From contig NZ_AP026738.1 of NCBI RefSeq assembly GCF_002157685.2, forward strand, positions 124,001 through 188,000: DNA of 64,000 nucleotides, read 5' to 3'. A program made the translations under genes and the position numbers. The notes below the pieces were generated by a model, which saw nothing but the letters and a program-made list of their open reading frames with translations, did no database searches and had not been told where the DNA came from. Numbering within the stretch: position 1 is the stretch's first letter; the number at the start of each line of letters is the position of its first letter. This document shows positions 13,855 to 33,592 of this stretch, piece after piece. Source of the stretch: Comamonas thiooxydans (GTDB lineage Bacteria; Pseudomonadota; Gammaproteobacteria; Burkholderiales; Burkholderiaceae_C).

Positions 13855-15413
13855 TGATGAGTGAGAGCAAGGAGCTGGTTCCGATTGACAGCAGCATTCA
13901 GTGGTGTCTGCTGTCGCACACCAATATCGGCAAGACCACGCTGACCCGTACGCTGATGGCCGATGATGTCGGCGAGATTGACGATGCCGCACATGTGACC
14001 ACTCAGTCGCAGCGCTATCTGCTTCAGAAGACGCCGCAGGGCGATGAGCTGTGGCTTTGGGATACGCCGGGCTTCGGCGACTCGGTGCGGCTTTATGAAC
14101 GCCTGCGGCAGCAGGGCAATCCGCTGGGCTGGTTTCTCAGCAATGTCTGGGATCGCTGGCGCGACAGGTCTTTCTATCTGAGTCAGCGTGCATTGCTTGC
14201 TGCGCGCGATCATGCGGATGTGATGCTCTACCTCGTCAACGCGGCCGAAGACCCGGCAGATGCTGGCTACTGGAGCGCCGAGATGAACATTCTGGCCTGG
14301 ATGAACAAGCCGGTCATCGTGCTTCTCAACCAGATTGGCAGCGACACCACGGCAGAGCAGACACAGGAAGATTTGCGGCGCTGGCAGCAGGCGACGCAGA
14401 GCTTTCAAAGCGTGGTGCGCGATGTGCTGGTGCTGGATGCCTTCACGCGCAGCTGGTGGCATGAGCGCAAGATGATGCAAAGCATTGCGCCTTTGTTGCC
14501 TCAGTCCAAACAGTCTGCCTATCAGCGCCTGCTGGAGCAGCGAGCTTTGCAGCAGCAGCAGCGCGAGCAGGCGAGCCTGGGGGTCATGGCAGATCAGCTG
14601 ATAGCTGCGGCAGGTCTGCATGAAAAGCTCGATCCCGAGCAAGGCAAACTGCTGGCGCGTGCCTGGCAAAGCCTGAGCCAGCTCACCGCCAAATTGGGTA
14701 AATCGGCAGAGGGTGAAGAGCGGCTCGGAGCCCAGGCCAAGGCCGCCGTTCAGCGGCTGATGCAGGCTTTGCGTCAGGCCGATGTGCAGGCTACCCAGCG
14801 CTTGCTCGAGATTCATGGACTCGACGGTCAGGCGGCCAGTCAGATACAGGAGCAATTGCGCAGCCAGCTTCAGATCACCACGCCGGTCGATGCGCAGGCA
14901 GCCAGCTTGTGGGGGGCGTTGACTGCCGGCGCAGCCACAGGGCTGGGGGCCGATCTGATGGCAGGAGGTTTGACGCTGGGTGCCGGTGCCCTGGTGGGGG
15001 CGCTGCTGGGGGCCCTCACCTTTGGGGGCGCGGCTTGGGGAGCGAACAAGATGTTCGACCAGGAGCAGCAGAGCTTTCAACTCTCGACCGACTATCTGAA
15101 CGCCGCAGCTAGCCAGGTATTGCTCAAGTACCTGCTGATCTCGCATTTCGGCCGTGGTCGCGGTCGCTACACCAGCCCTGCGGCGCCCAGTCAATGGAGT
15201 GAGCTGACCCAGGGCACGGTGCAGACGCATGCCGCGCAATGGGCCGCACTCTGGGCGCAGCTGCGCGAAGCACATGCCACAGGAGCTGCTACCGATGCGC
15301 AGAGAGTCTCCATGATGGAGCTGCTCTCGCAAAGCCTGCAGCAGATCATGGCCGACCTCTATCCGGGGCTGAACGCAGAGTCCGGTGTCAGAGACGGGGA
15401 AAGCGCACGGTGA
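13854..15413 (+). CDS. DUF3482 GTPase-like protein
   Basis: A 519-residue protein with an N-terminal GTPase domain. The P-loop reads SHTNIGKTTL, followed by the switch region and DTPGFGDSVRL (G3). G4 is LNQIGSD, not the canonical NKxD. A long helical region (about 210-340) precedes a glycine-rich hydrophobic hairpin (ATGLGADLMAGGLTLGAGAL), which may insert in a membrane. It resembles DUF3482/YfjP-like proteins and is coupled to the DUF2868 gene. Its last 26 bases overlap the convergent histidine kinase gene. Cellular role unknown. The altered G1 first residue (Ser for Gly) and G4 suggest modified nucleotide specificity or weak binding. Confidence 0.82.
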   Translation: MMSESKELVPIDSSIQWCLLSHTNIGKTTLTRTLMADDVGEIDDAAHVTTQSQRYLLQKTPQGDELWLWDTPGFGDSVRLYERLRQQGNPLGWFLSNVWDRWRDRSFYLSQRALLAARDHADVMLYLVNAAEDPADAGYWSAEMNILAWMNKPVIVLLNQIGSDTTAEQTQEDLRRWQQATQSFQSVVRDVLVLDAFTRSWWHERKMMQSIAPLLPQSKQSAYQRLLEQRALQQQQREQASLGVMADQLIAAAGLHEKLDPEQGKLLARAWQSLSQLTAKLGKSAEGEERLGAQAKAAVQRLMQALRQADVQATQRLLEIHGLDGQAASQIQEQLRSQLQITTPVDAQAASLWGALTAGAATGLGADLMAGGLTLGAGALVGALLGALTFGGAAWGANKMFDQEQQSFQLSTDYLNAAASQVLLKYLLISHFGRGRGRYTSPAAPSQWSELTQGTVQTHAAQWAALWAQLREAHATGAATDAQRVSMMELLSQSLQQIMADLYPGLNAESGVRDGESAR

Positions 15414-16560
15414 AAAGCGCGCCGCCACGCTCGGATATGCCCGTGCTGACGGTGCCGCCCTGCGAAGTCACCAGAGCCTTGACGATGGACAGACCCAGGC
15501 CCGAGCCTTCCCGGCGGCGCTTGCCTGGGGCCTGGACAAAGCGCTGGAAGGGGTGGGCCTGAACTTCGTCGGCAAGGCCGGGCCCCGCATCGCCCACTTC
15601 CAGGATCACCCATGACTGGTTCTGGTGGTCGGAGCTCGTATGCACCCGGATGCTCAGCCAATGGCCGCTGCTGGCATGGCGCAGCACGTTGCTGATGAGG
15701 TTGGTGGTGATCTGGCGCAAGCGATCGGTGTCGGCCTTGATGTCGGTGCTGCCATCGCCGTCCTGCATGGGCAGATCCAGTGACAGGGCCATGTCCAGCT
15801 TTTGCAGCTGCGGGTGCAAGTCCTCGACGACGTCACCGACCAGTGCGGCGAGGTCTATGCGTTCCTTGCGCAGAGACAGCTGTCCGGCGTCGGCCATGGA
15901 CAGGGTGTGCAGATCGCCGACCAGCCGTCCCAGATGCTCGACCTGGGCCAGCAGCGTCTTCATCTCGGCCTGGCTGGAGTCGATGACGCCGTCGCAGATC
16001 GCATGCAGTCTTGCCTGCAGCACCGTCAATGGGGTGCGCAGCTCGTGGGAGATGGAGGCGGCGGTGGCCAGGCGTTCCGCCTCCAGCGTTTCCAGCGAAT
16101 CAACCATGCCGTTGAAGGCATCGATCATCTCGGCCATCTCGCCATGGGCATTGCCCTTGACGGCTCTGGAGGCCAGGTCGCCACGCTCCACGCGCGCAGC
16201 CACTTCCACCATCGAGGCCAGCGGACTGGTGATGCGGCGGGAGATCCAGAAACCCACGGCCATGCCGAAAGGCAGGCTGACGGCCAGACCGATGACCAGC
16301 GACCATTTCTCGCCGAACAGGCGATCGCCCTCCCAGTACTCGGAGTAGATCTGCAAGGCTCTGGGGCTGTCCTCCAGATCCTGGGACTTCAGCGCTTCCA
16401 GCTCGGTCTTGACGGGGCTTGGCAGATGGCGATAGAACTCGCGGTACTGCAGCTCGGAAAACGCCAGCACGCCAATCGCCAGCGAGGCAATGGCCAGCAG
16501 CACGGCCGCCGTGATCCACAGACCAAAGCGGACCCAGATGCGGTTCAGTCCCAGGGCCAT
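15388..16560 (-). CDS. Sensor histidine kinase of the exporter locus
   Basis: A 390-residue membrane kinase: helix 1 at about 13-33, a short periplasmic loop (about 35-83), helix 2 at 86-106, then HAMP (ISRRITSPLASMVEVAARV). The H-box SISHELRTPLT places the phospho-accepting His at 172. N box (NLISNVLRHA), G1 (DAGPGL) and G2 (GSGLGLSIV) are all present. It resembles BaeS/envelope-stress kinases with small sensor loops. The start overlaps the end of the response regulator gene by 16 bases, so both are co-translated. The divergent operon starting at 17495 is the obvious target. The signal is unknown. Confidence 0.93.
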   Translation of the reverse strand: MALGLNRIWVRFGLWITAAVLLAIASLAIGVLAFSELQYREFYRHLPSPVKTELEALKSQDLEDSPRALQIYSEYWEGDRLFGEKWSLVIGLAVSLPFGMAVGFWISRRITSPLASMVEVAARVERGDLASRAVKGNAHGEMAEMIDAFNGMVDSLETLEAERLATAASISHELRTPLTVLQARLHAICDGVIDSSQAEMKTLLAQVEHLGRLVGDLHTLSMADAGQLSLRKERIDLAALVGDVVEDLHPQLQKLDMALSLDLPMQDGDGSTDIKADTDRLRQITTNLISNVLRHASSGHWLSIRVHTSSDHQNQSWVILEVGDAGPGLADEVQAHPFQRFVQAPGKRRREGSGLGLSIVKALVTSQGGTVSTGISERGGALFTVRFPRL

Positions 16561-17267
16561 AGACGATAGCCAATACCGCGCACGGTCTCGATCAGCCCAT
16601 CCTGGCCGGCCAGCTGCAGCTTGCGGCGCAGTTTGGAGAGATGGGAGTCGATCACCCGCTCCAGCGCATCGCTTTCCGGCAGGCAGTTCTCAATCAGGTA
16701 GGCACGTGAAAAGCAGCGGCGTGGCTGGGCCGCCAGGCAGGCCAGCAGACGGAATTCCGTGAGCGTCAGCGCCAGAGGCACGGCCTGGCCCGCATCGTCA
16801 TAGACGGCTGCACTATGGGCTTCCACGTCGATCTCTATGGGGCCGACGCGTATAGGCGCGGCCACCGGCGCAGGCTTGGCCTGGGTGCGGCGCAGCACGG
16901 CACGCACCCGGGCCACCACCTCGGGAGGGTTGAAAGGCTTGACCACATAGTCGTCCGCCCCCAGGCGCAGTGCCAGCAGCTTGTCCACATCGTCTGCCAG
17001 GGCCGTCACCATGATGACGGGGACATCGCTGTCATTGCGAATCATGCGCAGCACATCCACTCCATCGACCTTGGGCAGATGAATGTCTAGCAGCACCAGG
17101 TCCGGGCGCAGCTGCCGAAAGCTCTGCAGGGCTTCCTCGCCGTCCTGCGCCATGCGGATGCGCAGGCCGTCGCGCTCCAGATAGGCGCTGAGAACGCCGG
17201 CAATTCCGGGTTCGTCTTCGACTACAAGCACCATGGGCGTGGAAGCAGGTTGAGTAAAAGTAGTCAT
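16545..17267 (-). CDS. OmpR/PhoB-family response regulator of the exporter locus
   Basis: A 240-residue regulator from the ATG at 17267 (a longer frame starts at 17294). The receiver has the acidic pair in VVEDEPG, the phospho-acceptor Asp61 in LLDIHLPKVDG, and Lys110 in YVVKPFNPPEV. The C-terminal winged helix contains LTLTEFRLLACLAAQPRR and the recognition region ERVIDSHLSKLRRKL, ending VRGIGYRLWPW as in BaeR/OmpR types. It heads the kinase operon and is divergent from the exporter operon across 227 bases. Direct control of that operon is inferred; I could not pick out a tandem repeat operator there with confidence. Confidence 0.93.
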   Translation of the reverse strand: MTTFTQPASTPMVLVVEDEPGIAGVLSAYLERDGLRIRMAQDGEEALQSFRQLRPDLVLLDIHLPKVDGVDVLRMIRNDSDVPVIMVTALADDVDKLLALRLGADDYVVKPFNPPEVVARVRAVLRRTQAKPAPVAAPIRVGPIEIDVEAHSAAVYDDAGQAVPLALTLTEFRLLACLAAQPRRCFSRAYLIENCLPESDALERVIDSHLSKLRRKLQLAGQDGLIETVRGIGYRLWPWD

Positions 17268-17494
17268 GGTTTTGTGTGCAGCAAAGTCATGCATCTGCTG
17301 GACTCCCTGAAACTTGTTATCTGCACATTATGTGCGTTGCCGCTGCAATAGCCGAATGGAGGCGGCTCTCCATAATTCCTACATAAACCCTGCAATCTGG
17401 CGAAAGCTTGCTGCCGTCCAATGGCGAGGATGGAAAGCTGTTTCCGCTTTCTGCAGGTTCCCGGGTGACACCTATAGCTTGAGCCAACTGCGCT

Positions 17495-18904
17495 GTGATA
17501 TTTCCCTCTCACGTCTCGCGTCTTCGCATGGGCAGTCTGTGCCTGTGTGCCTTGTCGTTGCTGGCAGGCTGTGCTGCGCCCGAGGCAGTCAAGCTGGACC
17601 GGACCACACCACCTCAATGGCAGCAGCAGGAGTCGGCTCAAAAGTCGGACCCCGCGGAGCTGGCTCAATGGTGGCGTGCCTGGAATGACCCTGCTCTCAA
17701 TGCGCTGGTGGACGAGGCGCTGTCCCAGAACCTTGATGTAGCCCAATCCGTGCTGCGCCTGCGTCAGCAGCGCTTGCTGGCAGGTACGGCCGATGCGGCT
17801 TTCCGCCCCATAGTCAATACCGGAGCGCGGACCCTGCAGGATATTGCGGCAGTTGATACCTACTTTCATGCCAGCATTGATGTGAGCTGGGATCTGGGCC
17901 TGTTTGGCGATTCCGCCGCGGCACGCCGTGCAGGCGCAGCCGGCGTGCTGGACGCGCAAGCCCAGCTGCATGCGGCGCGGGTGGCCCTGGTGGCCGATGT
18001 GGTGCACCGCTATCTCGATATCCGGCTGGCCCAGGTGCAGCGTGGTTTCGCCGAAAAGCAGTTGCAGCAGGCACAGCGACAGCTGCAGCTCTTGCAGGTT
18101 CGGCATGAGCAGAGACTGACAGATGCCCAGACTCTGGAGCAGCAACAGTTGCAGCTGCGCACCGCAGAGTCTCAGCTGTCCACACTGAACGAAGCCCAGG
18201 CACGTGCTGCCCATGCGCTGGCAGCCCTGCTGGGGCGCGAGCGCGCCGAGCCGCAATGGCTGCAGCCCGGTGCCGCTGCCGCGCTGCCCGCAGTGCAGGC
18301 GCTTACCGTGCTGCCGGCAGACCTGCTGCGCAACCGCCCCGATATTCAAAGTGCCGAGGCTGCTGTGGAACAGGCCGCAGCCGAGGTCGGCGTGTCGCGC
18401 GCGGCGCTCTATCCGCGGCTGACCCTGACAGGGTCCCTGCTGTATGCCTACAACCTGACGCGCAATCACCGCACGACCTCGGACTCCATCCCCATGGTCG
18501 GTCCGCAGATCGATATTCCGCTCTTTGACTGGGGGCGCCGCCGTGCCGTGGCGGACGGCAAGGAGCTGGCGCTGCAGGCCAGCATCAAGGCATACCGCCA
18601 GGCCGTGCTCAACGGTATGGCCGAGGCGGAATCGGCGCTGGCGGCGGTTGCCGCCCAGCAGCAAAGACAGCAGCAGCTGCAGTCCCAGCAGCAGATTCAT
18701 GCCGGGCTCGAGAAGGCTCAGGCAGTGCGCCAGCAGCTGGGCCTGTCCAGCGAGCTTGCGGGCATCGATAGCACCCGTGCCAGCCTGCAAAACCAGAGCG
18801 AGCTGGCAACCGCCAGGGCTGCCGAGGCACTGGCCTATGTGGCGCTCTACAAGGCCGTGGGCGCTGCGCCCATCGATGCCGCAGTCTCCGAGGTCCAGCC
18901 ATGA
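17495..18904 (+). CDS. TolC/NodT-type outer-membrane efflux lipoprotein
   Basis: Outer-membrane channel of a tripartite exporter. Residues 1-26 are a lipoprotein signal ending in LLAGC; the cysteine at about 25 would be lipidated. The 469-residue body has the two-fold repeat of the OEP family, with long heptad-like helices (LAQVQRGFAEKQLQQAQRQL) and a repeat joint around RNRPDIQSAEAAVEQAAAEV. I prefer the GTG at 17495 because it supplies the positively charged n-region (HVSRLR); the ATG at 17528 is the alternative. It opens a nine-gene rightward operon whose stop/start pairs mostly overlap. The next three genes supply an ABC permease, ATPase and adaptor. Confidence 0.92.
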   Translation: MIFPSHVSRLRMGSLCLCALSLLAGCAAPEAVKLDRTTPPQWQQQESAQKSDPAELAQWWRAWNDPALNALVDEALSQNLDVAQSVLRLRQQRLLAGTADAAFRPIVNTGARTLQDIAAVDTYFHASIDVSWDLGLFGDSAAARRAGAAGVLDAQAQLHAARVALVADVVHRYLDIRLAQVQRGFAEKQLQQAQRQLQLLQVRHEQRLTDAQTLEQQQLQLRTAESQLSTLNEAQARAAHALAALLGRERAEPQWLQPGAAAALPAVQALTVLPADLLRNRPDIQSAEAAVEQAAAEVGVSRAALYPRLTLTGSLLYAYNLTRNHRTTSDSIPMVGPQIDIPLFDWGRRRAVADGKELALQASIKAYRQAVLNGMAEAESALAAVAAQQQRQQQLQSQQQIHAGLEKAQAVRQQLGLSSELAGIDSTRASLQNQSELATARAAEALAYVALYKAVGAAPIDAAVSEVQP

Positions 18905-20049
18905 TTGCCCTGGCGCGCAAGACGCTGATCCATGAGTGGAGACGCTTTGTCCCCTCGGTGTTCGCCGTGGGCTTTTCAGGCGTTCTGCTGGCCATGCAGG
19001 CTGCCTTGGTGCTGGGCATCTTCGGCTCTGCCGCGATCTACGTGACGGCTTCTTCGGCCGACCTCTGGGTGGGCTATCCGGGTACGCAAAGCGTGAATTT
19101 CGGGCGCAATATCGGCAGCGATGTGGAGATGCGTCTGCGCATGGACCCCGATGTGGCGGCCGTGGAATCCTATGTCTGGGTCGATGGCGACTGGCGCGCG
19201 CGTGCCGGTGCCCAGGGTGCGACCGGAGGCGGAGTCTCGGTCTATCTTTCGGGCGTCAGCACTGCGGACAACTCCATGATGTTCACCAAGGTGCTCACCT
19301 CCTGGCAGCGACAGCTGCTGCGCGAGCCCGGTGCCGTGATTGTGGACAGGGCGGACCTGGGGACTCTGGGCGCGCAGGAAGGCAGCACGGCCTGGATCAA
19401 CAACCATGCGGTCAAGATCGTGGCTGCCGTAGACGGCTTGCGCGGTCTGGGCGGTGTCAACGTGATCGCCTCGCTCAGCACGGCCCGCGAAATTGCAGAA
19501 ACCAGTGCCGAGCGTGGCAGCACCTATTTCGTGGCGCGCCTGAAGCAAGCGGCCAAGGCCGGCGAGGCCCAGGCGAGATTGAGCCAGCCCAGCAGCAGCT
19601 TCGGTCCGTACGAGGTCTGGACGGCGGATGCTTTTGCGCGCCGCTCGCAGCGTTACTGGATGCTCGATACCGGAGCCGGTGCCGGCGTGCTCTTCATGGC
19701 CGTCATCGTCTGCCTGGTGGGCGCCATCGTGACCAGCCAGTCGCTCAAGGCGGTGGTGGCGGGGTCCGCCCGCGAGTATGCGGTGCTCAATGCTCTGGGC
19801 GTGAGCCGAGCGGCACTGGGTCGTGTGGTGGTCGAGCAGGCCTGCTGGATTGGCGGCCTGGGCTTTGTGCTGGCGGCACTGGCCAGCGCGGTGCTGCTCA
19901 GCATTGCATCCACCTATCGCGTCCCTGTGGCCCTCAACTTGTCAGCGGTACTCGCTTGCGGCTTTCTGGTGGCCGTGCTGTCGCTGCTGTCGGGTCTGGG
20001 CGCCATGCGCAGCCTGCTGCGCGCCGATCCGGCAACCCTGTTGCGTTAA
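18901..20049 (+). CDS. FtsX/DevC-type ABC transporter permease
   Basis: A 382-residue inner-membrane subunit. One membrane segment near 20-45 is followed by a large periplasmic domain (about 50-255) and three C-terminal segments (about 258-285, 313-335, 345-370), the four-helix layout of FtsX/MacB/DevC permeases. Length and the RKTLIHEWRRFVPSV start resemble DevC of heterocyst glycolipid exporters more than MacB, since the ATPase is a separate protein. ATGA overlap with the upstream channel gene shows coupling. The substrate is unknown; DevC/MacB types move lipids, peptides or hydrophobic drugs from the inner leaflet or periplasm rather than the cytoplasm. Confidence 0.88.
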   Translation: MIALARKTLIHEWRRFVPSVFAVGFSGVLLAMQAALVLGIFGSAAIYVTASSADLWVGYPGTQSVNFGRNIGSDVEMRLRMDPDVAAVESYVWVDGDWRARAGAQGATGGGVSVYLSGVSTADNSMMFTKVLTSWQRQLLREPGAVIVDRADLGTLGAQEGSTAWINNHAVKIVAAVDGLRGLGGVNVIASLSTAREIAETSAERGSTYFVARLKQAAKAGEAQARLSQPSSSFGPYEVWTADAFARRSQRYWMLDTGAGAGVLFMAVIVCLVGAIVTSQSLKAVVAGSAREYAVLNALGVSRAALGRVVVEQACWIGGLGFVLAALASAVLLSIASTYRVPVALNLSAVLACGFLVAVLSLLSGLGAMRSLLRADPATLLR

Positions 20050-20059
20050 GGCCTGAAAC

Positions 20060-20821
20060 ATGCAAGCCGGGACCATGGAACGCATCAAAAATTCTGCTGC
20101 AGTCAAGGATGCAGCGCCCAGCCTTGAGGCCGTGCGTCTCGACAAATCCTTTGTGTCGGGCATCGTGCAGGTGCATGTGTTGCAAGGGCTGTCCGTCAGC
20201 CTCTATGCGGGGGAGTTGAGTCTGATCTCTGGCCCTTCGGGCTGCGGAAAAAGCACGCTGCTGTCGCTGATGTCGGGTCTGCAAAAGCCCGATGCCGGTC
20301 ACGCGATCGCACTGGGCGAGGATCTGGCCAAGCTCGGCACGGCGGCGCTGGAGAAATTTCGTCTGCGCCATACGGGTTTTGTCTTCCAGGGCTTCAATCT
20401 GTTTCCGGCCTTGACGGCACTGGAGCAGGTGCAACTGCCGCTGGGCTATATGGGGCTCAGAAGCGCCGAGACATTGCGCCGTGCCAAGGAGGCGCTCGAT
20501 GAAGTGGGGCTCTCCCACCGCAGTCATATGCGCCCGGCCCAGCTGTCGGGCGGCGAGAAGCAGCGTGTTGCCATCGCACGTGCCATGGCCAAGCAGCCGC
20601 GTCTGCTGTTTGCCGACGAGCCCACCAGTGCGCTGGATGCCGAGAGCGGCCAGCGCGTCATTGACTTGCTGCACCGTGCAGCGCGCACGCACGGCACAAC
20701 GGTGCTCTGCGTCAGCCATGACCCGCGTCTGGTGCGCCACGCCGATCGTGTGCTGGGCATGGAAGACGGCGCCATTCGCAGCGACTGGCGCCAGAACAGC
20801 CCCATCAAGGAATCAACATGA
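20060..20821 (+). CDS. ABC transporter ATPase (DevA/LolD/MacB type)
   Basis: A 253-residue cytoplasmic ATPase that powers the FtsX-type permease. Walker A is GPSGCGKST, the Q-loop FVFQGFNLFPALTALEQV is typical of the LolD/MacB class, the signature is LSGGEKQRVAIARA, Walker B is LLFADEPTSALD and the switch histidine is in LCVSHDPRLVRHAD. It starts 10 bases after the permease stop; an in-frame ATG at 20075 is a possible alternative. Its end overlaps the adaptor start by four bases. Confidence 0.94.
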   Translation: MQAGTMERIKNSAAVKDAAPSLEAVRLDKSFVSGIVQVHVLQGLSVSLYAGELSLISGPSGCGKSTLLSLMSGLQKPDAGHAIALGEDLAKLGTAALEKFRLRHTGFVFQGFNLFPALTALEQVQLPLGYMGLRSAETLRRAKEALDEVGLSHRSHMRPAQLSGGEKQRVAIARAMAKQPRLLFADEPTSALDAESGQRVIDLLHRAARTHGTTVLCVSHDPRLVRHADRVLGMEDGAIRSDWRQNSPIKEST

Positions 20822-21753
20822 ACCCAAGCCCATTTCGTCTCAGCATTGTGTCGGGCGCGCCGTTGCTGGTGGCGGCCGTGCTGATGCTGGGCGGGTGCTC
20901 TCCGTCTCAGAACGCGGCCTCCGTGGTCACCCCGGCTGCAGCCCAGGTCAAGCCTCAAAGCCAGGTGGCGGTTGCGCGGGGCAAGATCGACGTCGAGGGC
21001 GGTCTGCTCGATCTCTCGTCGGCCGCATCGGGCGTGGTGCAGCAGTTGCTGGTCAAGGAAGGCCAGAGCGTACAGAAAGGCCAGCCGGTGCTGCGTCTCG
21101 CGGACGATGCGGCGCGCGCCGATCTGGCGGTGGCGGAGTCCGAGCTGCAGCTGGCACAGACCAAGCTCAAGACACGCCAGGATCGCCTGCCCGCGCTCAA
21201 GGCCACGCTGACGCGCTGGCAGGCCGCTGCCAAGCAGGGTGCGGCGGATCTGCAGAGCGTGGATGAAGCCGTGCAGGCACTGCGCGACGCACAGTCCGAA
21301 GTGGATATTGCGGCTGCGGAAGTCACGGTCGCCAAGCGCAAGGCCGAACAGCTGCGGGCCTTGCTGCAGCGCCACGAGCTGCGTGCGCCCGAGGCCGCCG
21401 TCGTGGTGCGCCTGCTGGCCCAGGGCGGCAGCATGCTGCAAAGCGGCAGCCCGGTGGCGGTACTGCTGCCCAAGCGGCCCCTGATCGTGCGGGCCGAAGT
21501 CAACGAAAGCTATGTGACGGCGATTCGCGAAGGCATGAAGGCCCAGGTGGCCGTTGACGCAGACGGCAGCGCTGCCCGTCAGGAGTTTCCCGCCGCCACC
21601 GTGCTGCGCATCAGTCCCGTCTACGGCACGGCCCGGCTGCAGGACGACGCGCAGCGCGGCCCGGTAAGAGTTGTGGAATGCGTGCTGGCATTTGACCAGC
21701 CGCCCGCCAATGTCAAGGTCGGTCAGAACGTGAGGGTCAGTTTCCATGAATAA
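20818..21753 (+). CDS. HlyD/DevB-type periplasmic adaptor, lipoprotein
   Basis: Membrane-fusion protein that links the ABC permease to the outer-membrane channel. The 311-residue product starts with a signal peptide ending in the lipobox LGGC (Cys near 27), so it is anchored by lipid instead of a membrane helix. It contains the split lipoyl half motifs (SGVVQQLLVKEGQSVQKGQP and ELRAPEAAVVVRLLAQGGSM), flanking a coiled-coil hairpin (about 95-185), and a C-terminal beta-barrel ending VKVGQNVRVSFHE. This matches DevB-like adaptors. It overlaps the ATPase stop and the phosphatase start. Confidence 0.9.
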   Translation: MNPSPFRLSIVSGAPLLVAAVLMLGGCSPSQNAASVVTPAAAQVKPQSQVAVARGKIDVEGGLLDLSSAASGVVQQLLVKEGQSVQKGQPVLRLADDAARADLAVAESELQLAQTKLKTRQDRLPALKATLTRWQAAAKQGAADLQSVDEAVQALRDAQSEVDIAAAEVTVAKRKAEQLRALLQRHELRAPEAAVVVRLLAQGGSMLQSGSPVAVLLPKRPLIVRAEVNESYVTAIREGMKAQVAVDADGSAARQEFPAATVLRISPVYGTARLQDDAQRGPVRVVECVLAFDQPPANVKVGQNVRVSFHE

Positions 21754-22459
21754 GCGCATTCAGATTTTCCCGTCGCCTGCAGCTACAGCTTCGACCGGCT
21801 GGATGGTGCAAAGCGATTTCGACGGCACCATCAGCCTGCTGGACGTGACCGATACCCTGCTCAACCGCTTTGGCAAGCCTGGCTGGCAGGAGCTGGAAGA
21901 TGCCTGGGAGCGTGGCGAGATCGGCTCGCGAGAATGCATGAAGGGGCAGGTGGCCCTGCTGGACATGAGCGAGGCCGAGCTGCAGAACCATCTGGACGGC
22001 ATAGAGATCGACGAGCACTTTGCCGGCTTCGTGGCCGAGGCCAGGCTGCATGGCATCAAGGTGCAGGTCGTCAGCGACGGCATCGACTATGCGATTCGCC
22101 ATGTGCTCGCACGCCATGGCCTCGGGGATCTGGAAGTCATCGCCAATCATCTGGTGCAGACGGGCGAGCGCAGCTGGCGGCTGGATTCGCCCTGGGCCAG
22201 CAATCGCTGCACACGGGCCAGCGGCAACTGCAAGTGCGAACGCCTGGCCGAGCAGCAGGCCGTGCACGGGCGGGTGCTCTATATCGGCGACAGCACCTCG
22301 GATTTCTGCGTTTCCGGCAAGGCGGATTTCGTGCTGGCCAAGTACAAGCTCATCGACTATTGCGAGAGCCAGGGGATTGCCCATGCGCGCTTCGAGCATT
22401 TTGCGCAGGCCACCCAGCTGCTGGAGCAGGTCCTGCTCGGCATGGAGCAGACTGCATGA
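21746..22459 (+). CDS. HAD-superfamily phosphatase, MtnX/PSP-like
   Basis: A 237-residue phosphoserine-phosphatase-like hydrolase. The catalytic motif SDFDGTIS gives the nucleophile Asp24 and general acid Asp26; VQVVSDGIDYAI carries motif II, and IGDSTSDFCVSGKADFV motif IV for magnesium. The small cap insertion (about 35-80) is the C1 type of MtnX and PSP. The cysteine-rich RCTRASGNCKCERL segment is unusual and might bind metal. The methionine-salvage partners of true MtnX are absent; here it overlaps an exporter adaptor upstream and a hydrolase downstream. It probably dephosphorylates a biosynthetic intermediate of this locus (inference). Confidence 0.82.
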   Translation: MNKRIQIFPSPAATASTGWMVQSDFDGTISLLDVTDTLLNRFGKPGWQELEDAWERGEIGSRECMKGQVALLDMSEAELQNHLDGIEIDEHFAGFVAEARLHGIKVQVVSDGIDYAIRHVLARHGLGDLEVIANHLVQTGERSWRLDSPWASNRCTRASGNCKCERLAEQQAVHGRVLYIGDSTSDFCVSGKADFVLAKYKLIDYCESQGIAHARFEHFAQATQLLEQVLLGMEQTA

Positions 22460-23364
22460 ATGCCGCCGATGGATTGGGGCTGCTGCAGCAGCCGGATTTG
22501 CAGCAGCTGTGCGTGACGCCGCATGAGTTCGTCATGCCCGGCGAAGGCCGCAATGCCCGCACGGGCGTGCTGTTGATTCATGGCCTGACCGGCACGCCCG
22601 CCGAGATGCGCCTGCTCGCCAAAGGTCTGAACAAGCAGGGCTTCACGGTCTACGGGGTGCAGCTGGCAGGACATTGCGGCAGCATGGAAGACCTGGTGGC
22701 CGCCCGCTGGACCGACTGGCTGGCAAGTGTGGAGTCGGGTCTGCAGCGCTTTTCGCTGCACGTGGACCATGTGGTGGTCGGCGGTCTGTCCATGGGGGCG
22801 CTGCTGTCGCTGGCCGTGGCCGAACGCCATCCCGACAAGGTGGCCGGCGTCTGTGCGCTGTCCACCACCTTCCGCTATGACGGCTGGAGCATTCCGGCCT
22901 ATACCAAGCTGGCGTTCCTGCTGCCGCTGTTCCGTCTGCTGGGCATCGGCCGCAACAGCGTCTTCATGGAGGCGCCGCCCTACGGCATCAAGGACGAGGC
23001 CTTGCGCGCGCGCGTGGTCGAGCAGATGAACAGCGGCGACAGCTCTGCCGCGGGCCTGCCCGGCAATCCCTGGTGGAGCGTCATCGAGCTGCGCGCCCTG
23101 TCCGCGAATGTGCAGACCCGGCTGGCGCAGCTGCGCTCGCCCTGCCTGGTCATTCATGCCCGGGAAGACGATATTTCCTCGGTCAGCAATGCCCACGATA
23201 TCCAGCGCGGCGCGGTCAACGCCCATGTCGACCTGGTGCTGCTGGACAATTGCTATCACATGATCACCATCGACCGCGAGCGCCGCACCGTGATTGCCAA
23301 GCTCAACGAATTCATCGCGCGCATTGCCAGCTCGGCGGCGCCTGCCAGGGGTGCGAATGGGTAG
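22456..23364 (+). CDS. Alpha/beta-fold hydrolase (carboxylesterase-like)
   Basis: A 302-residue serine hydrolase. The oxyanion region is LLIHGLTGTPAEM, the nucleophile elbow GGLSMGA (Ser112), the likely acid is in HAREDDISS and the catalytic His in NCYHMITIDRE. This resembles Est30/monoacylglycerol-lipase type carboxylesterases, including a small cap with LAFLLPLFRLLGIG. No signal peptide, so cytoplasmic. It starts on the ATGA stop of the phosphatase gene and ends overlapping the first small DMT gene, so it belongs to the same pathway. The substrate is unknown; an acyl or thioester intermediate is possible. Confidence 0.85.
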   Translation: MNAADGLGLLQQPDLQQLCVTPHEFVMPGEGRNARTGVLLIHGLTGTPAEMRLLAKGLNKQGFTVYGVQLAGHCGSMEDLVAARWTDWLASVESGLQRFSLHVDHVVVGGLSMGALLSLAVAERHPDKVAGVCALSTTFRYDGWSIPAYTKLAFLLPLFRLLGIGRNSVFMEAPPYGIKDEALRARVVEQMNSGDSSAAGLPGNPWWSVIELRALSANVQTRLAQLRSPCLVIHAREDDISSVSNAHDIQRGAVNAHVDLVLLDNCYHMITIDRERRTVIAKLNEFIARIASSAAPARGANG

Positions 23365-23725
23365 TGATCTCTCGCCCCTGGTGGTGACGCTGTGGATACT
23401 CAATGTGCTGGTGGACAGCGGTGGACAGCTGGCTTTCAAGGCCGCGGCCAGCGAGCCGGGGCATCGCAATGGCACGGAGCGCTGGCGCTTCATGCTGGCC
23501 AGGCCCTGGCTGTGGGTGGGCATTGCCTGCTATGTGGCGGAGTTTCTGGTCTGGCTGGCGTTCCTGTCGCTGGTGCCGCTGTCGGACGGGGTGCTGCTGG
23601 GCTCGATCAACATCGTTGCCATCATGATTCTGGGCCGGGTGCTGTTCCGTGAAAAGCTCGCGCCCATGCGCGTGGCCGGCATCGTGCTGGTGTCCATAGG
23701 CGTGGCCATCGTTGGATTGCACTGA
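23357..23725 (+). CDS. Small DMT-superfamily membrane protein (SMR/ArnE-like), subunit 1
   Basis: A 122-residue protein with four predicted membrane helices: about 4-24 (LVVTLWILNVLVDSGGQLAF), 48-68, 74-95 and 100-120. The GQLAFKAA element after helix 1 and the terminal IVLVSIGVAIVGLH are typical of four-helix EamA/SMR proteins such as ArnE and ArnF, which flip aminoarabinose-undecaprenyl phosphate. It overlaps the hydrolase gene by 8 bases, and a second four-helix gene follows after 12 bases, so a heterodimer is likely. Confidence 0.82.
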   Translation: MGSDLSPLVVTLWILNVLVDSGGQLAFKAAASEPGHRNGTERWRFMLARPWLWVGIACYVAEFLVWLAFLSLVPLSDGVLLGSINIVAIMILGRVLFREKLAPMRVAGIVLVSIGVAIVGLH

Positions 23726-23737
23726 GGGCCGTCGGTT

Positions 23738-24124
23738 ATGAAGCGTTTTTACATTGTCGGCTTTCTGGTACTCATGGCCTTTGACACACTGGCGCAGCTC
23801 AGCTTCAAACAGGCCGGTGATTCCGCCTTGCCGCTGGAGTTCTCGACCGGCTGGCTGCTGCGCGTGTTCAGCCAGCCCTGGATCTACGGTGCCTTCGTGG
23901 GCTACATCGGGGCCTTTTTCACCTGGATGAGCCTGCTCAAGCACGCTCCCATCGGCCCGGCATTCGCCGCCTCGCATCTGGAGATCATCTCGGTGCTGGC
24001 GATCTCGTACTGGCTGTTCAACGAGCCCATCGGCTGGCCGCAGATCATTGGCTGTCTGTTCATCGTGGCCGGCATCATGTGCCTGGCCTTGAGCGAGAAG
24101 CCAGAGGCCGAGCAGGCCGCCTGA
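23738..24124 (+). CDS. Small DMT-superfamily membrane protein (SMR/ArnF-like), subunit 2
   Basis: A 128-residue partner of the preceding gene, again with four helices (about 3-23, 45-66, 72-93, 100-120). It has AQLSFKQAGDSALP after helix 1, matching the conserved region of subunit 1, and ends with a charged SEKPEAEQAA tail. Paired, unequal small DMT proteins usually act as an antiparallel heterodimer. Next to an aminotransferase, a lipid-linked or amino-sugar substrate is plausible, as for ArnEF, but glycosyltransferases and ArnA/ArnC-like enzymes are absent. Confidence 0.82.
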   Translation: MKRFYIVGFLVLMAFDTLAQLSFKQAGDSALPLEFSTGWLLRVFSQPWIYGAFVGYIGAFFTWMSLLKHAPIGPAFAASHLEIISVLAISYWLFNEPIGWPQIIGCLFIVAGIMCLALSEKPEAEQAA

Positions 24125-24125
24125 G

Positions 24126-25331
24126 ATGCGCCAGCCCACCGTGCCGCCAACGGCCGGACTGCCACTGCAGCTCGGCGATCTCTGGCCCTCGGGGGCGGGC
24201 AGCCTGGCAGGACAGCTGGCCGCATGGCTGGGCGTGGAGGCGGTGCAGCTCGAATGTTCGGGTACCTCGGCCCTGATGGTGGCTCTGCGCAGCCTGCAGG
24301 CTCTCAGTCAGGGGCGCAGCGAGGTCGTTGCACCGGCTTATACCTGTCCGCTGGTGGCGCTGGCGATTGCGCAGTGCGGGCTGCAGCTGCGCCTGTGCGA
24401 TCTGCGCGCCGATGCGCTGGACATGGACCCTGTCTGTCTGAAGCGCCTGTGCAGCGACCGCACGCTGGCCGTGCTGCCCACGCATCTGTGCGGGCGTGTG
24501 GCAGATGTGGATGCTGCCTTGCAATGCGCGCGCGCCGTGGGCGCCTATGTGATCGAGGATGCCGCCCAGGCGCTGGGAGCGCGCAGCGACGGAGTTTCGG
24601 TGGGCCTCAAGGGCGATATCGGCTTTTTCAGCCTGGCCGTCGGCAAGGGACTGAGCACTTTTGAAGGCGGCGTGCTGATGGCGCGCGAGCCTTCCATGCG
24701 TGCTGCGCTGCGCGCCGCAGGCGCCGCCACGCGCTTGAGCCCATGGTGGGAGCTGCGCCGCAGCATCGAGCTGTTGGGCTACGCCATGCTCTACCGTCCC
24801 AGCGGCCTGCGCATGGCCTATGGCAGGCCGCTGGAGAAATCGCTGTCCCGCGGCGACTGGGTAGAGGCCGCAGGCGATGACTTCGACGATCTCATTCCCC
24901 AGCACAGTCTGGGGCACTGGCGCCAGAGCGTGGGCGCCAAGGCATTGCGGCGGCTGGCTGCATTTCAGCAACAGACATCCACGCAGGCCGGCCTGCGCAT
25001 CGCGCAGCTGCAGGCCTGCGGGCTGGAGGTCGTGCAGGATGCCGTGCCCGGGGCGCAGGGCGTGTGGCCGGTGATACTGCTGCGCATGCCCAGCCAGAAG
25101 GCCAGGGATGCCGTGCTGCGCGCACACTGGGGCGGTGGCTGGGGTCTGTCCCTGCCCTTTGTCCATGTGCTGCCCGACTATGGCCGCTACGACCATGTGC
25201 TGGGTGCTGCGCGGGGCGACACGGTCGGCCAGGCGCGCGACTGGGCGCAGCGCCTGCTGGCCATCAGCAATAGCCCGTGGCTGGATGACGAGCGCTTTGC
25301 GGATTTGCTGGACACGCTGGCTGCACGCTGA
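24126..25331 (+). CDS. DegT/DnrJ/EryC1/StrS-family aminotransferase
   Basis: A 401-residue PLP enzyme of the sugar-aminotransferase family. ECSGTSALMVALRSL binds the cofactor phosphate, VIEDAAQALGA gives the ring-contacting Asp145, and SLAVGKGLSTFEGG gives Lys174, the Schiff-base residue. The usual preceding histidine (SFHxxK) is replaced by S-L-A-V-G-K. Family members add an amino group to keto-sugars, so an amino sugar or other amino-polyol is the expected product. It begins one base after the small membrane protein gene and closes the operon. The C-terminal domain has several departures from known sugar enzymes, so the true substrate is open. Confidence 0.85.
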   Translation: MRQPTVPPTAGLPLQLGDLWPSGAGSLAGQLAAWLGVEAVQLECSGTSALMVALRSLQALSQGRSEVVAPAYTCPLVALAIAQCGLQLRLCDLRADALDMDPVCLKRLCSDRTLAVLPTHLCGRVADVDAALQCARAVGAYVIEDAAQALGARSDGVSVGLKGDIGFFSLAVGKGLSTFEGGVLMAREPSMRAALRAAGAATRLSPWWELRRSIELLGYAMLYRPSGLRMAYGRPLEKSLSRGDWVEAAGDDFDDLIPQHSLGHWRQSVGAKALRRLAAFQQQTSTQAGLRIAQLQACGLEVVQDAVPGAQGVWPVILLRMPSQKARDAVLRAHWGGGWGLSLPFVHVLPDYGRYDHVLGAARGDTVGQARDWAQRLLAISNSPWLDDERFADLLDTLAAR

Positions 25332-25470
25332 TACGCCTACGCCTGCAATCTGTCTGCAATAACGATATAGAAATCCATTCGTTCTGTTTTCGCCGGCTCG
25401 TTTCTGCACTGAACTTGAACGGACTGCATGGCCTATTGCCCCGCAGATCAAGGCACAAGGAGTGGCGAAA

Positions 25471-27102: not shown

Positions 27103-27428
27103 TCGAAATCATCAGTTCAGAGCGTTGCACCGGCTGCAATATCTGCGTCCATGCCTGTCCTACCAATGTGTTCGACATGGTCAAAGGGCAGGCTCCACGA
27201 ATTGCTCGACAAAGCGATTGCCAGACTTGCTTTATGTGCGAGCTGTATTGCCCTGAGGACGCTCTGTATGTCGCACCGGTGGCAGATGCTGCTGCCCATG
27301 TTGATGAGCTTTCGCCTGCCACGCAAGCTTTGCTGGGCAGCTATCGCGCCTCCGTTGGTTGGGGCAAAGGTCGCCAATCTACCGCGGCACTGGATGCCAG
27401 CTACGAGCTGCTGGCGCGTGCGCATTAG
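27099..27428 (+). CDS. Ferredoxin with two [4Fe-4S] clusters
   Basis: A 109-residue electron carrier with CTGCNICVHACP at residues 10-21 and CQTCFMCELYCP near 41-52, two complete CxxCxxCxxxCP motifs. A C-terminal extension of about 45 residues follows. It overlaps the flavoprotein stop (ATGA) and most likely transfers electrons to or from its FAD, as AprB does with AprA. The substrate-binding protein gene starts 14 bases later. Confidence 0.92.
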   Translation: MIEIISSERCTGCNICVHACPTNVFDMVKGQAPRIARQSDCQTCFMCELYCPEDALYVAPVADAAAHVDELSPATQALLGSYRASVGWGKGRQSTAALDASYELLARAH

Positions 27429-28474: not shown

Positions 28475-29776
28475 TCAAGCGATATTTGCTCTTGCTTCAA
28501 TGGGATCTGTCATAGCGGAAACTCTGCATTTCTGTCCGGATTCCCTGGCTTTCAGTGCTGTCTCATGCTCGGCGATATAGCTGCGCGTGAGCGGCACGGC
28601 ATCCTGCCTGCGCGCCAGCTGAACCTGGAAGATGGCGATGTCCTGATAGCGGAACGCGGTTTCCGACATGGACAGATAGAACTCCCACATGCGGCAGAAG
28701 CGCTCGTCATACAGTGCTGCGGCTTCGGCACGGCGTGCCATGAAACGTTCGCGCCACAGGCGCAGGGTCTGGGCATAGTGCAGGCGCAGCACCTCGATAT
28801 CGCAGATCACCAGCCCCGCGCGCTCTATGGCCGGCGTGAACTCCGACATCGACGGAATATGGCCGCCAGGAAAGATGTAGCGCTCTATCCAGGGATTGTT
28901 GAAGTCGGGCACATCGCTGTTGCCTATGAAGTGCAGCAGCATCACGCCGTCCTCGCTGAGCAGCTCATGGCATTTGCGGAAGAAGGCGTCGTGGAATTTC
29001 GTGCCCACATGCTCGAACATGCCGACAGAGACGATGCGCTCGAACGGCCCCTGTGTATCGCGGTAGTCTTCCAGCCGGTACTCCAGCCGTTCGCCATGGA
29101 GGGACTGCGAGGCCCTGGACTGCGCGCCGGCCAGTTGCTCTGTGGACAGCGTGATGCCGGTGACATGACCGGCACCGGCCACCTCGGCCAGATAGCGCGA
29201 GAGACCGCCCCAGCCGCAGCCGATGTCGAGCACGCGCTGGCCCGGCTCGATCAGCAGCTTGGCAGCGATATGGCGCTTCTTGGCCAGCTGGGCCGTTTCC
29301 AGGTCTTCGTTGCCCTGCTCGAAATAGGCGCAGGAGTACTGGCGCTCGCTGTCGAGAAACAGCTGATAGAGCCGGTCGTCCAGATCGTAGTGATGTGCCA
29401 CGTTGGCACGCGATCTGCCGCGCAGATTGTTCTGCAGCAAGGGCCGTAGCTTCATGCGCCAGGCATCGAGCATGCGTACCGTGGCGCTGACGGGCACCTG
29501 CTTGGCGCCGCGCAGCACCAGCTCCAGAACGTCGTAGACCGTGCCCTGCTCGACCAGCAGGCGCTGCTGCATGAACAGCTCGCCAAAGTTGAGGTCGGGG
29601 TCGCGCAGCAGCGCCAGGACGGCGCGTCTGTCGGCAAAGCGCAGGCGCGCCTGGGGCTGGCCGCCGTCGCCGAAGATCAGCGCCTTGCCTGAAGGGGTGA
29701 TGACTTCGAGCCGTCCCGTTTTGACCAGAGGTGCAAATACCTGTTGCAGCAATTTTTCGGTCAGCCGGTCCAGCAT
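28475..29776 (-). CDS. cfa: Cyclopropane-fatty-acyl-phospholipid synthase
   Basis: Transfers a methylene group from AdoMet to cis double bonds of membrane phospholipid chains. The 433-residue protein starts at an ATG preceded by AAGGAGC. An N-terminal lipid-binding part (1-135) precedes NVAHHYDLDDRLYQLFLD, the hallmark of the family, then the AdoMet loop VLDIGCGWGGLSRYLAE and FERIVSVGMFEHVGTKF. The end DPIEARANIA is unremarkable. It is the last of four leftward genes and lies 47 bases behind the arginase-fold gene. E. coli Cfa has 382 residues, so this is the longer type common in betaproteobacteria. Confidence 0.93.
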   Translation of the reverse strand: MLDRLTEKLLQQVFAPLVKTGRLEVITPSGKALIFGDGGQPQARLRFADRRAVLALLRDPDLNFGELFMQQRLLVEQGTVYDVLELVLRGAKQVPVSATVRMLDAWRMKLRPLLQNNLRGRSRANVAHHYDLDDRLYQLFLDSERQYSCAYFEQGNEDLETAQLAKKRHIAAKLLIEPGQRVLDIGCGWGGLSRYLAEVAGAGHVTGITLSTEQLAGAQSRASQSLHGERLEYRLEDYRDTQGPFERIVSVGMFEHVGTKFHDAFFRKCHELLSEDGVMLLHFIGNSDVPDFNNPWIERYIFPGGHIPSMSEFTPAIERAGLVICDIEVLRLHYAQTLRLWRERFMARRAEAAALYDERFCRMWEFYLSMSETAFRYQDIAIFQVQLARRQDAVPLTRSYIAEHETALKARESGQKCRVSAMTDPIEARANIA

Positions 29777-29823: not shown

Positions 29824-30723
29824 CTAATTCGTGCTGCTGAGCGCTATGTGCTGTATCAGCCGCTGGTTCAATGCATGCTGCCCGGCCTGCCAGCCGGCCA
29901 GCGTAGCGGCGTCAATCTGTGTGTCCTGGCCGTCGCCCGCGCTCATCAGTCGTTTCCACCAGGTGCCATAGTGCCATGACGACACGTCACCCGTGATATC
30001 ACTGCCCGTGATCTGCCCGCGCAGCGCATTGATCAGCTGCACGGCCTGCTCTTCCAGCATCCGGCCCTGGTCCCAGTTGGTGCGCACGACTTCGGCGGCG
30101 AATACATCCTTGTCTATGCTCAGATACGTGTCCTGCGGCCAGTCATGCAGATGGTTGGACAGCGCCTGTACCAGCTCCGAGATATCGGCAAAGCTGCGAA
30201 ACGCCTTGCCCGCGCCCAGGCGCCGGGCCCAGCCGGTGTCCACGCCGCAGCTCCAGTAGGTGAGCTTGCCGGCGCGCAGCGGCCGCAGATAGTTTTCCCA
30301 GGCGTGGCCCGAGCCTATGTCCTGGGAGGTGATGCCTGCCACATGAACCTGCGACACGGCCGGGTGCATGGCCACGCGCCTCACCCAGGAGCCGCAGTGC
30401 ACGCCCCAGGGAAAGCGCATATTGTCGGGGTGGTTGTCCAGCACCACCACGCGCAGCGGATGCTTGGCGCTGAAGCCCTTCTGGGCGATGCAGCGCTCGA
30501 TCAGCGGCCAGCTCAGATGGTGAAAGTCGCCGCTGCCCATGAGCACGGTGCCGTGCAGTGCGGGCAGCTGTTCATGCACCGCCTGGCTGAAGCGCCTGAA
30601 GCTGCGCAGGCCGCAGCCAAAGCGCACCAGCTCCTGCCACTGGGCAAGCGCAAGCCGCTTTTCCTGGACCAGCGGGCCTACCGACCCATCGACATCGAGC
30701 ACCACAGGTGTTTGTTGCATCAT
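29824..30723 (-). CDS. Arginase/ureohydrolase-fold protein, divergent
   Basis: A 299-residue protein with the metal-ligand pattern of the arginase superfamily: GSGDFHHLSW (His68/69), LDNHPDNM (Asp96, His98, Asp100, a DxHxD motif) and LSIDKDVF (Asp204, Asp206, an SxDxD motif). All expected manganese ligands are therefore present. The surrounding sequence is very unlike arginase, agmatinase or formimidoylglutamase, so the substrate cannot be named; hydrolysis or deacetylation-like cleavage of a guanidino, amidino or similar C-N bond is the family expectation. The start ATG overlaps the GNAT stop (ATGA). The neighbourhood has an aminotransferase, a GNAT protein and Cfa. Confidence 0.72.
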   Translation of the reverse strand: MMQQTPVVLDVDGSVGPLVQEKRLALAQWQELVRFGCGLRSFRRFSQAVHEQLPALHGTVLMGSGDFHHLSWPLIERCIAQKGFSAKHPLRVVVLDNHPDNMRFPWGVHCGSWVRRVAMHPAVSQVHVAGITSQDIGSGHAWENYLRPLRAGKLTYWSCGVDTGWARRLGAGKAFRSFADISELVQALSNHLHDWPQDTYLSIDKDVFAAEVVRTNWDQGRMLEEQAVQLINALRGQITGSDITGDVSSWHYGTWWKRLMSAGDGQDTQIDAATLAGWQAGQHALNQRLIQHIALSSTN

Positions 30724-31781
30724 GGCTTGTAGCCCCACTGGCTATCGCTTTCAAACAGGCCGGAGAAGCGTCGCCCCAACGCGCGCAGCACGGGGTTGCG
30801 CACGAAGACCAGATGCTGCGTCATGGTGAAGCTGGCGCCGAGCTGGGCCTTGACTTCTGGATCGGTCCAGCCCGCCACATAGTGGGACAGACCCCGCTCC
30901 AGTGCGTACTCGAGGTTGACCATCCAGCTCACGAAATAGAGATTCGCCTCGCGCGCTGCCGGGTAGGACAGGCCTATGTATTTGTCGATCAGCCTGCCGT
31001 CATGCTCGAAGCAAAGATTCCAGCCCAGCAGAGCATCGCTTTGCCGATCCCGGTATTCGAACACGATGCCGCCGTTGTCCGCATCGCGCAGCAGGCCGGC
31101 CAGGAAGGCGCGAGAGAGCTTGTCGAAATGGATCTCGCTTTGCGCATACACCGCTTCGAACAAGGCGTAGTAGGCGTCGATGTGGCTCTCGTCGGCAAAG
31201 GCGGCGCCGGTCGGCATGCGGCGGATGTCAAGCCCGGCGCGGCTCTTGAGTTTGCGCCTGAGGCTGCTGCGGCGGTTCTTGGACAGTCCGGCCAGATACT
31301 CATCGGCACTGGCAAAGTCCAGTGGCACATAGGCCAGTGCCTGGCCCTCGAGTGCCACAAAGCCTTGCTCGGCCAGTGCCTGCGACAAGGCCTTGGCAAA
31401 GTCATTGTCGCTGGCGCTCAACAGGGGCGATGCCTGCGGCAGATCCTTGACGATGGTGAGCATGGTCCGGCCCGCAACGGCACGCAGCTGCCGCGCCAGG
31501 GTGGCGGCCTCCACGCCCTGGGGCAGGGGCGCATACTCGCTGACCGTGCTGCCGATGAAGTCCGTCTTCAGCCTGAGTCTGGCGCTCAGCCAGCGCCCGC
31601 CCGGCAACGACAAAAGACGCGCCTTGAGCGCGTCATCTGCGGTGGTCAGCAAATCGAAGGGGGCGGTGAATGCTGGCGCCGGCCATTCCTTCAGCAAGGC
31701 AAAGCCTTCTGGAGGATGGTTGGTGAACTGCTGCAGCAAGCCACTGGGTTCGAGCCGGTTGCGGAAATTTTCCGTCGCCAT
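30720..31781 (-). CDS. GNAT-fold acyl/aminoacyltransferase (FemAB-like)
   Basis: A 353-residue protein starting at ATG 31781. The C-terminal half resembles the acyl-CoA/aminoacyl-tRNA N-acyltransferase fold of large GNAT or FemAB-like proteins: LAGLSKNRRSSLRRKLKS, then HIDAYYALFEAVYAQSEIHF, FEYRDRQSDALLGWNLCFEH and YFVSWMVNLEYALERGLSHY. It probably transfers an acyl or aminoacyl group to an amine. It overlaps the arginase-fold gene at ATGA, so the two act together. It lies 188 bases behind the class III aminotransferase gene across a GC-rich repeat hairpin. No signal peptide or membrane segment. Substrate unknown. Confidence 0.75.
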   Translation of the reverse strand: MATENFRNRLEPSGLLQQFTNHPPEGFALLKEWPAPAFTAPFDLLTTADDALKARLLSLPGGRWLSARLRLKTDFIGSTVSEYAPLPQGVEAATLARQLRAVAGRTMLTIVKDLPQASPLLSASDNDFAKALSQALAEQGFVALEGQALAYVPLDFASADEYLAGLSKNRRSSLRRKLKSRAGLDIRRMPTGAAFADESHIDAYYALFEAVYAQSEIHFDKLSRAFLAGLLRDADNGGIVFEYRDRQSDALLGWNLCFEHDGRLIDKYIGLSYPAAREANLYFVSWMVNLEYALERGLSHYVAGWTDPEVKAQLGASFTMTQHLVFVRNPVLRALGRRFSGLFESDSQWGYKP

Positions 31782-33343: not shown

Positions 33344-33592
33344 AGCAGAAAGCGCTCCGCAAAAATGGATTCGGTCAACGGTATGCGGCAGCAGTGTGCG
33401 TTTGCAATATTTCCGGGCTGTCGAGCATTTGTGTGGGAATTGTGGAGAGCTCCCTATTGGCCGGTTTCCTGCGGCCTCAAGGATTTGAAACCGGCGTGGC
33501 AGCCCTCCCGCTGTGGTTCCTGCTGGCCCAAGGCTCGGGGCGGAGCCGCCACGGGCTGGCCAGGCGGCACCGGGGCCGCTGCTGCGGGCCGA

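Follow-up and report, generated by a model that had tools for sequence, protein, structure and literature searches.

A putative two-operon regulon in Comamonas thiooxydans for making and exporting an amine-rich, aminoacylated small molecule

We describe a gene cluster in a 64,000-nucleotide stretch of the closed 5.9-Mb genome of Comamonas thiooxydans (NZ_AP026738.1, positions 124,001 to 188,000; G000:C1:124001-188000 in our own numbering), which is referred to here as the window and in which nine rightward genes for a predicted exporter and a set of enzymes lie beside a divergent two-component system. The operon begins with a NodT-type outer-membrane efflux lipoprotein (OMF, outer-membrane factor; 17495..18904, plus strand as are the next eight; TIGR01845 224.6 bits with a cut-off of 210.05), followed by a DevC/FtsX-type ABC permease (18901..20049; FtsX Pfam domain; TIGR01185 devC 48 bits, cut-off 290.35), a DevA/LolD/MacB-type ATPase (20060..20821; ABC_tran; DevA 218.9 bits, cut-off 295.8) and a HlyD-type adaptor which is a predicted lipoprotein (20818..21753; HlyD_3; DevB 58 bits, cut-off 129). 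The enzyme genes are those of an MtnX-like HAD-IB phosphatase (HAD; 21746..22459; PDB 2fea 57.8 bits), an alpha/beta serine hydrolase (ABH; 22456..23364; Hydrolase_4 81.6 bits) and a DegT-family pyridoxal phosphate (PLP) aminotransferase (DegT; 24126..25331; PF01041 124.7 bits), with two small EamA/SMR-type membrane proteins encoded between the last two, SMR1 (23357..23725; EamA 32.6 bits; ArnE 31.7 bits, cut-off 92) and SMR2 (23738..24124; EamA 33.6 bits; ArnF 27.6 bits, cut-off 99). All nine genes which a preliminary description of this DNA had listed as having overlapping or nearly touching ends are present, with gaps between neighbours of -8 to +12 bases and an ATGA overlap joining the HAD and ABH genes.

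The two-component system is encoded on the minus strand by an OmpR-type, AdeR-like response regulator (RR; 16545..17294; Response_reg and Trans_reg_C) and an AdeS/BaeS-like sensor histidine kinase (HK; 15388..16560; Pfam HATPase_c, HAMP and HisKA) whose genes overlap by 16 bases. Its divergent orientation had been recognised correctly, although the interval first given for the cluster took in the regulator gene and left most of the kinase gene outside. Just upstream of the locus are DUF2868 and DUF3482/GTPase genes (12286-15413), and the GTPase neighbour is kept in four related loci (L031-L034).

Facing the rightward operon is a convergent group of four minus-strand genes, which encode a class III PLP aminotransferase (AT3; 31970..33343; Aminotran_3 242.5 bits), a FemX/MprF-type tandem-GNAT transferase (FEM; 30720..31781; FemAB_like 37.4 bits, cut-off 27), an arginase-superfamily hydrolase (ARG; 29824..30738, starting at GTG 30738 or ATG 30723; PF00491 24 bits, cut-off 22) and a cyclopropane-fatty-acid-synthase-type S-adenosylmethionine methyltransferase (CFA; 28475..29776; CMAS 291.8 bits). 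The FEM and ARG genes overlap (4 bases are shared when 30723 is taken as the ARG start), while 47 bases separate ARG from CFA and 188 bases separate AT3 from FEM. We found these additional families by comparing the window genes with relatives fetched by DegT and with named loci, in which AT3, FEM and ARG were recurrent beside DegT. At least three of the four genes belong to the same unit as the rightward operon, and the membership of CFA is less sure than that of AT3, FEM and ARG. The supposition that the nine genes are the whole route is not supported, AT3, FEM, ARG and, less surely, CFA having been missed. Between DegT and CFA lie FAD-dependent reductase-like, 4Fe-4S ferredoxin and NMT1-like binding-protein genes (25462-28447). 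These were excluded from the unit because the first two are matched in only one of 28 loci compared (L034), and because CFA stands directly after DegT elsewhere (e.g. in L031, L032, L033 and L035); the three genes look like a metabolic insertion.

The permease, AT3 and FEM are co-inherited within the genus: of 23 genus-level genomes 17 have all three and the other six have none, so that presence or absence agrees in 23 of 23. The outcome that the preliminary description had named as refuting it, a lack of co-conservation, was thus not seen. In each of the 17 genomes the AT3 orthologue is 92–99% identical to a Delftia acidovorans protein. A strong DegT orthologue (>500 bits) was found in 16 of 25 genus-level genomes, our own included, and the 23 just mentioned are among these 25. 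The seventeenth unit-bearing genome, G015, is without DegT and has some 77 bases with no run of N between its CFA and SMR2 matches (L172:9192-9270), where DegT may have been lost naturally or be missing through an effect of the assembly.

The unit is common in the genus and patchy elsewhere. DegT matches at E 1e-30 were found in 11 of 150 family-level, six of 300 order-level and five of 369 class-level genomes (our own being counted in each), and of the four other class-level genomes two hold members that are clear (52% identity) and the remaining two hold weak ones. Genera with the unit include Comamonas, Delftia, Variovorax, Acidovorax and Rhodanobacter, plus Stenotrophomonas without a nearby exporter. 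The comparison covered 51 loci of the DegT family that are no shorter than 17 kb, among which L068 and L110 stand for a single record. We excluded L059 and L060 (DegT 30% and 39–42% identical over part of the protein) as other DegT families, as well as L112 and L114-L117 (33–41%) and the weaker L118-L154. SMR2 and DegT are on the same strand and no more than 400 bases apart in all 51 loci, so that chance is very unlikely to account for the gene order. SMR1 and SMR2 are present in 51 loci each, ABH in 48, HAD in 44, ARG in 43, FEM in 42 and AT3 in 41; the OMF, permease and adaptor are found in 36 each and the ATPase in 39; and HK is found in 46, RR in 45 and CFA in 10. The seven core genes other than DegT are all present in 39 loci, and together with the four exporter genes in 30, while 14 loci contain none of OMF, permease and adaptor. 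It should be noted that these numbers include loci cut by contig ends, which lowers the counts, and that some genes called as AT3, ATPase, HK or RR in the more distant loci may be paralogues, which raises them. One such locus, L104 (Oleisolibacter), has a different class III aminotransferase-like protein with 23% identity to AT3 (L104:7007-8443) near SMR1, SMR2, DegT, ARG, FEM and HAD.

We define an eight-gene core (HAD, AT3, ABH, SMR1, SMR2, DegT, FEM and ARG) which was found from the Burkholderiales and Xanthomonadales to Desulfovibrio, as well as in a Nitrospirae metagenome-assembled genome (MAG) in which ARG was not seen on a cut contig. The Desulfovibrio MAG (L111) has the compact set HAD-AT3-ABH-SMR1-SMR2-DegT-FEM-ARG without the exporter, and the Nitrospirae MAG (L113) has HAD-AT3-ABH-KS-ACP-FEM-SMR1-SMR2-DegT, in which KS and ACP are a ketosynthase and an acyl carrier protein and the contig ends inside DegT. 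The exporter, KS and ACP occur together in Rhodanobacter (L077), Dyella (L078), Xanthomonas bonasiae (L083) and Luteibacter (L092), and neither the exporter nor KS and ACP are nearby in the four Stenotrophomonas loci (L090, L093, L094 and L099). We rejected KS and ACP as a universal part of the unit, each being present in seven of the 51 loci; the best match of the L077 KS in our genome is 42%, and is alike in G002 which is without the unit. Relatives of FA_hydroxylase occur in three of 66 loci (L073, L074 and L103), and in L103 (Diaphorobacter aerolatus) the fatty-acid hydroxylase gene (L103:105-1028) adjoins the unit and its product shares 44% identity with that of L073.

Smaller sets were found with AT3, which at E 1e-110 matches six of the 369 class-level genomes (our own included), three of which are without a DegT match at E 1e-30. 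The class-level locus L186 (7259-17277) contains a regulator, the exporter, HAD, ABH, SMR1, SMR2 and AT3, with no DegT, FEM or ARG in 18 kb (the range to which this absence applies, FEM and ARG not having been searched for genome-wide), and appears to be a reduced form of the pathway. L188 contains HAD, AT3, ACP and KS, and L187, a short contig, contains ABH, HAD and AT3. From the gene content of these three loci, HAD and AT3 seem to form the innermost core, with DegT, FEM and ARG resembling a tailoring set.

The response regulator is nearest to AdeR among NCBIfam models (244.2 bits, cut-off 340, for a query that lacked ten N-terminal residues), followed by CreB and BaeR, also below cut-off, and the kinase is nearest to AdeS (192.6 bits) and BaeS_SmeS (185.4 bits), which both have cut-offs of 500. 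In three other loci compared (L077, L090 and L073), the neighbouring regulators are nearest to PmrA, again below cut-off. As two types of regulator adjoin the one pathway, both of them nearest to envelope or drug-response families, these similarities support a role for the pathway at the envelope.

By eye, the regions upstream of OMF in relatives contain a CTCCAT direct repeat with 11-base spacing. We constructed a position weight matrix (PWM) from the OMF-side sites of 28 of 29 relatives, excluding the window and omitting L063 because of a score cut; L068 and L110, both used, are a single record. The best match in the window is in the OMF promoter (17368..17387, plus strand; CTCCATA-N4-CTACATAAA, with half-sites 11 bases apart; score 32.5) and the second-best is in the AT3 promoter (33428..33447, minus strand; CTCCACA-N4-CCACACAAA; score 22.0), with a third site scoring 13.7. 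Without the nearest relative the three scores were 31.3, 21.0 and 14.1, and among 60 column-shuffled matrices the AT3 promoter was in the top two twice and both promoters were once. A genome search with the two-site pattern, allowing up to three mismatches, found no further match (one match for the reversed control), and 0.00 matches were expected in shuffles of the window. In a genome from another genus (G460), the pattern of its own two promoter sites finds both of these plus one three-mismatch site elsewhere, with none for the control. Across 20 regions upstream of AT3 (including that of the window), 12 had higher scores than the window's best background site and eight had lower ones. Because a matrix made from the OMF side of relatives ranks both promoters first and second, the adjacent AdeR-like regulator probably controls both operons through these putative boxes.

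A motif scan found lipoboxes in the OMF (LAGC) and adaptor (LGGC), and the ATPase has Walker A and LSGGE motifs and reads LLFADEPT, though the strict Walker B pattern gave no match. HAD contains DFDGTI and GDSTSD, and with the former as its catalytic DxDGT motif and a TIGR01489 score of 102.2 bits (cut-off 81.55) it falls in the MtnX-like HAD-IB subfamily, while ABH has the serine-hydrolase motif GLSMG. The lysine of the DegT GKG motif is invariant in our family alignment (A1), and the four best full-length matches of the protein share 84–94% identity with it, the named ones being from Comamonas. The closest solved DegT relatives in a PDB search are 2-deoxy-scyllo-inosose aminotransferases and perosamine synthetase. 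We note that the C-terminal half of DegT looks divergent, as the Pfam match covers residues 28-196 of 401 and the best stretches against solved relatives end by residue 240.

The AlphaFold model of FEM (pLDDT, predicted local distance difference test, 91.2) has a tandem-GNAT fold that spans the chain and is nearest in structure searches to aminoacyl-tRNA-dependent peptide synthases, with Sbb17 as the top match, scoring about as high as MprF (18.4 vs 17.4), and FemX also among them; coenzyme A-dependent GNATs have the same fold at lower Z. The catalytic lysine of FemX is Lys305, and K112, K177, K267 and K311 of FEM are invariant in 20 sequences; a FEM profile search against solved proteins gave no match up to E 10, and hence no residue alignment to the FemX lysine. 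As that search was empty, we took the single-sequence PDB matches of FEM, which were to ATP synthase alpha alone (E 0.0017–0.0091, residues 49-111), to be spurious. An analogy of FEM with bacterial ceramide synthase was considered and dropped, a literature search having given no supporting paper. The ARG model (pLDDT 91.9) is nearest to arginases and amidinohydrolases in Foldseek and VIA matches and retains the two-metal ligand motifs, which are invariant in 22 sequences, and this fold and these motifs place ARG in the arginase superfamily. The ARG profile found arginases in PDB (best E 6.4e-7, with one unrelated chain at 0.23), the single sequence found five unrelated matches alone (E 0.4–0.9), and the ARG of the window had no NCBIfam match at E 0.001.

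Several parts of the locus resemble known systems. Like the cyanobacterial glycolipid exporter DevBCA/TolC, the pump consists of an ABC ATPase, an FtsX-like permease, a HlyD adaptor and an outer-membrane factor, here four genes in one operon, but the DevA, DevB and DevC cut-offs are all missed, the adaptor is a predicted lipoprotein and the OMF gene is inside the operon. SMR1 and SMR2 are an adjacent small membrane pair like the ArnEF flippase, and ArnE and ArnF are their respective best NCBIfam matches, at about a third of the cut-offs. DegT shares its N-terminal half and PLP lysine with the DegT/DnrJ/EryC1/StrS sugar aminotransferases, but no nucleotide-sugar enzyme was recognised in the unit and the best-matching stretches end by residue 196 (Pfam) or 240 (PDB). 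As cut-offs or full-length matches fail, we kept these three as resemblances and did not accept them as memberships, and they do not fix the product as had been suggested: the G015 unit and L186 are without DegT, and 14 of the 51 loci are without exporter genes. FEM has the fold of the MprF/FemX/Sbb17 tandem-GNAT group without the flippase domain of MprF, and ARG shares its fold and metal motifs with arginase, agmatinase and proclavaminate amidino hydrolase at 10–18% identity. The two-component system has AdeR and AdeS as best matches below the equivalog cut-offs, and its putative targets differ from those of AdeRS/BaeSR.

We consider that about 15 genes, arranged as two convergent operons, form a single regulon which serves, under envelope stress, to make and export a small molecule that is aminoacylated, rich in amines and possibly acyl-linked, and think this reading, taken whole, a little more apt to be right than wrong. 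It starts from the gene content, co-inheritance, shared promoter element, fold assignments and conserved motifs given above, and from these we infer the substrates, the order of reactions, the product and the binding of the response regulator. The AdeRS/BaeSR-like system would sense an envelope condition, and the regulator would bind the direct repeat upstream of OMF and of AT3 and turn both operons on. AT3 and DegT would place amino groups by transamination, FEM would join an aminoacyl group, with aminoacyl-tRNA as the probable donor, to an acceptor that is an amine or a lipid, and ARG would take off an amidino group, so that a guanidino group becomes an amine or an arginyl group becomes ornithinyl. 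HAD would remove a phosphate and ABH would cleave an ester or thioester, the SMR pair would carry a membrane-bound intermediate to the other side of the inner membrane, and the DevBCA-like pump and outer-membrane channel would export the product. An acyl chain is suggested because KS and ACP join the set in some Xanthomonadales and in the Nitrospirae MAG; CFA and the occasional FA_hydroxylase genes also speak for an acyl part, none of these being universal, and the product is possibly a lipid. More tentatively, and as something we find credible without expecting it, the product may represent a new class of stress-induced metabolite, a polyamine-like (lipo)compound, tRNA-dependently aminoacylated and with amines unmasked by an amidinohydrolase, for which varied lineages would have joined the eight-gene core to varied envelope sensors and often to a tripartite exporter.

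A lesser possibility, close to the preliminary description, is an envelope lipid modification in which a cationic aminoacylated or amino-modified lipid would be made in answer to cationic peptides and be retained in the outer membrane, with the SMR pair as flippase and the ABC pump as lipid exporter. The resemblance of FEM to the lipid-aminoacylating domain of MprF is in keeping with this, as are neighbouring regulators nearest to AdeR or PmrA, a CFA-type lipid enzyme inside the operon, and the FA_hydroxylase relatives, KS and ACP of some loci. However, the FEM model is a soluble two-domain protein without the membrane part of MprF and Sbb17 scored about as high, the lipid enzymes CFA and FA_hydroxylase are found in few loci, and the ArnE, ArnF, DevB and DevC cut-offs are missed. 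We think it unlikely that the unit makes a secreted antimicrobial or signal by streptothricin-like logic, in which aminoacyl-tRNA would be used to form an amide bond on an amino-sugar or amino-cyclitol and the tripartite pump would give self-protection. The best structural hit of FEM, Sbb17, is a peptide synthase that depends on aminoacyl-tRNA and has a further solved structure with streptothrisamine, the closest solved DegT relatives are 2-deoxy-scyllo-inosose aminotransferases and perosamine synthetase, and AdeRS controls drug efflux, but no sugar, cyclitol or scaffold enzyme was recognised in the unit, the best DegT stretches against these relatives end by residue 240, and to be found in as many as 17 of the 23 genomes is in our opinion more than expected for an antibiotic cluster. 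That an efflux pump merely sits beside an unrelated metabolic operon, co-conserved as an inherited neighbourhood, would fit the 14 loci missing OMF, permease and adaptor and the enzyme sets without exporter genes in L111 and the truncated L113, but is very improbable given that the permease is never found without AT3 and FEM, nor the reverse, in 23 genomes, that the genes overlap and share a promoter box, and that exporter and enzymes stay together in L077, where the adjoining regulator is of another type.

The proposal of a regulon for making and exporting an amine-rich compound retains the central claim of the preliminary description, that one co-conserved unit links an exporter to amine chemistry and an envelope-type sensor in no recognised pathway, and this is supported here. 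We found no description of the locus in open-licence full texts (subscription papers lie outside this scope), and rate it as a regulated biosynthesis-and-export cluster. The locus offers uncharacterised members of several enzyme superfamilies in one pathway, and the shared promoter box and clean pattern of presence and absence make the make-and-export unit testable. If borne out, this would add to what common genera can do either a way of modifying the envelope with amines or a secreted amine compound, new in each case.

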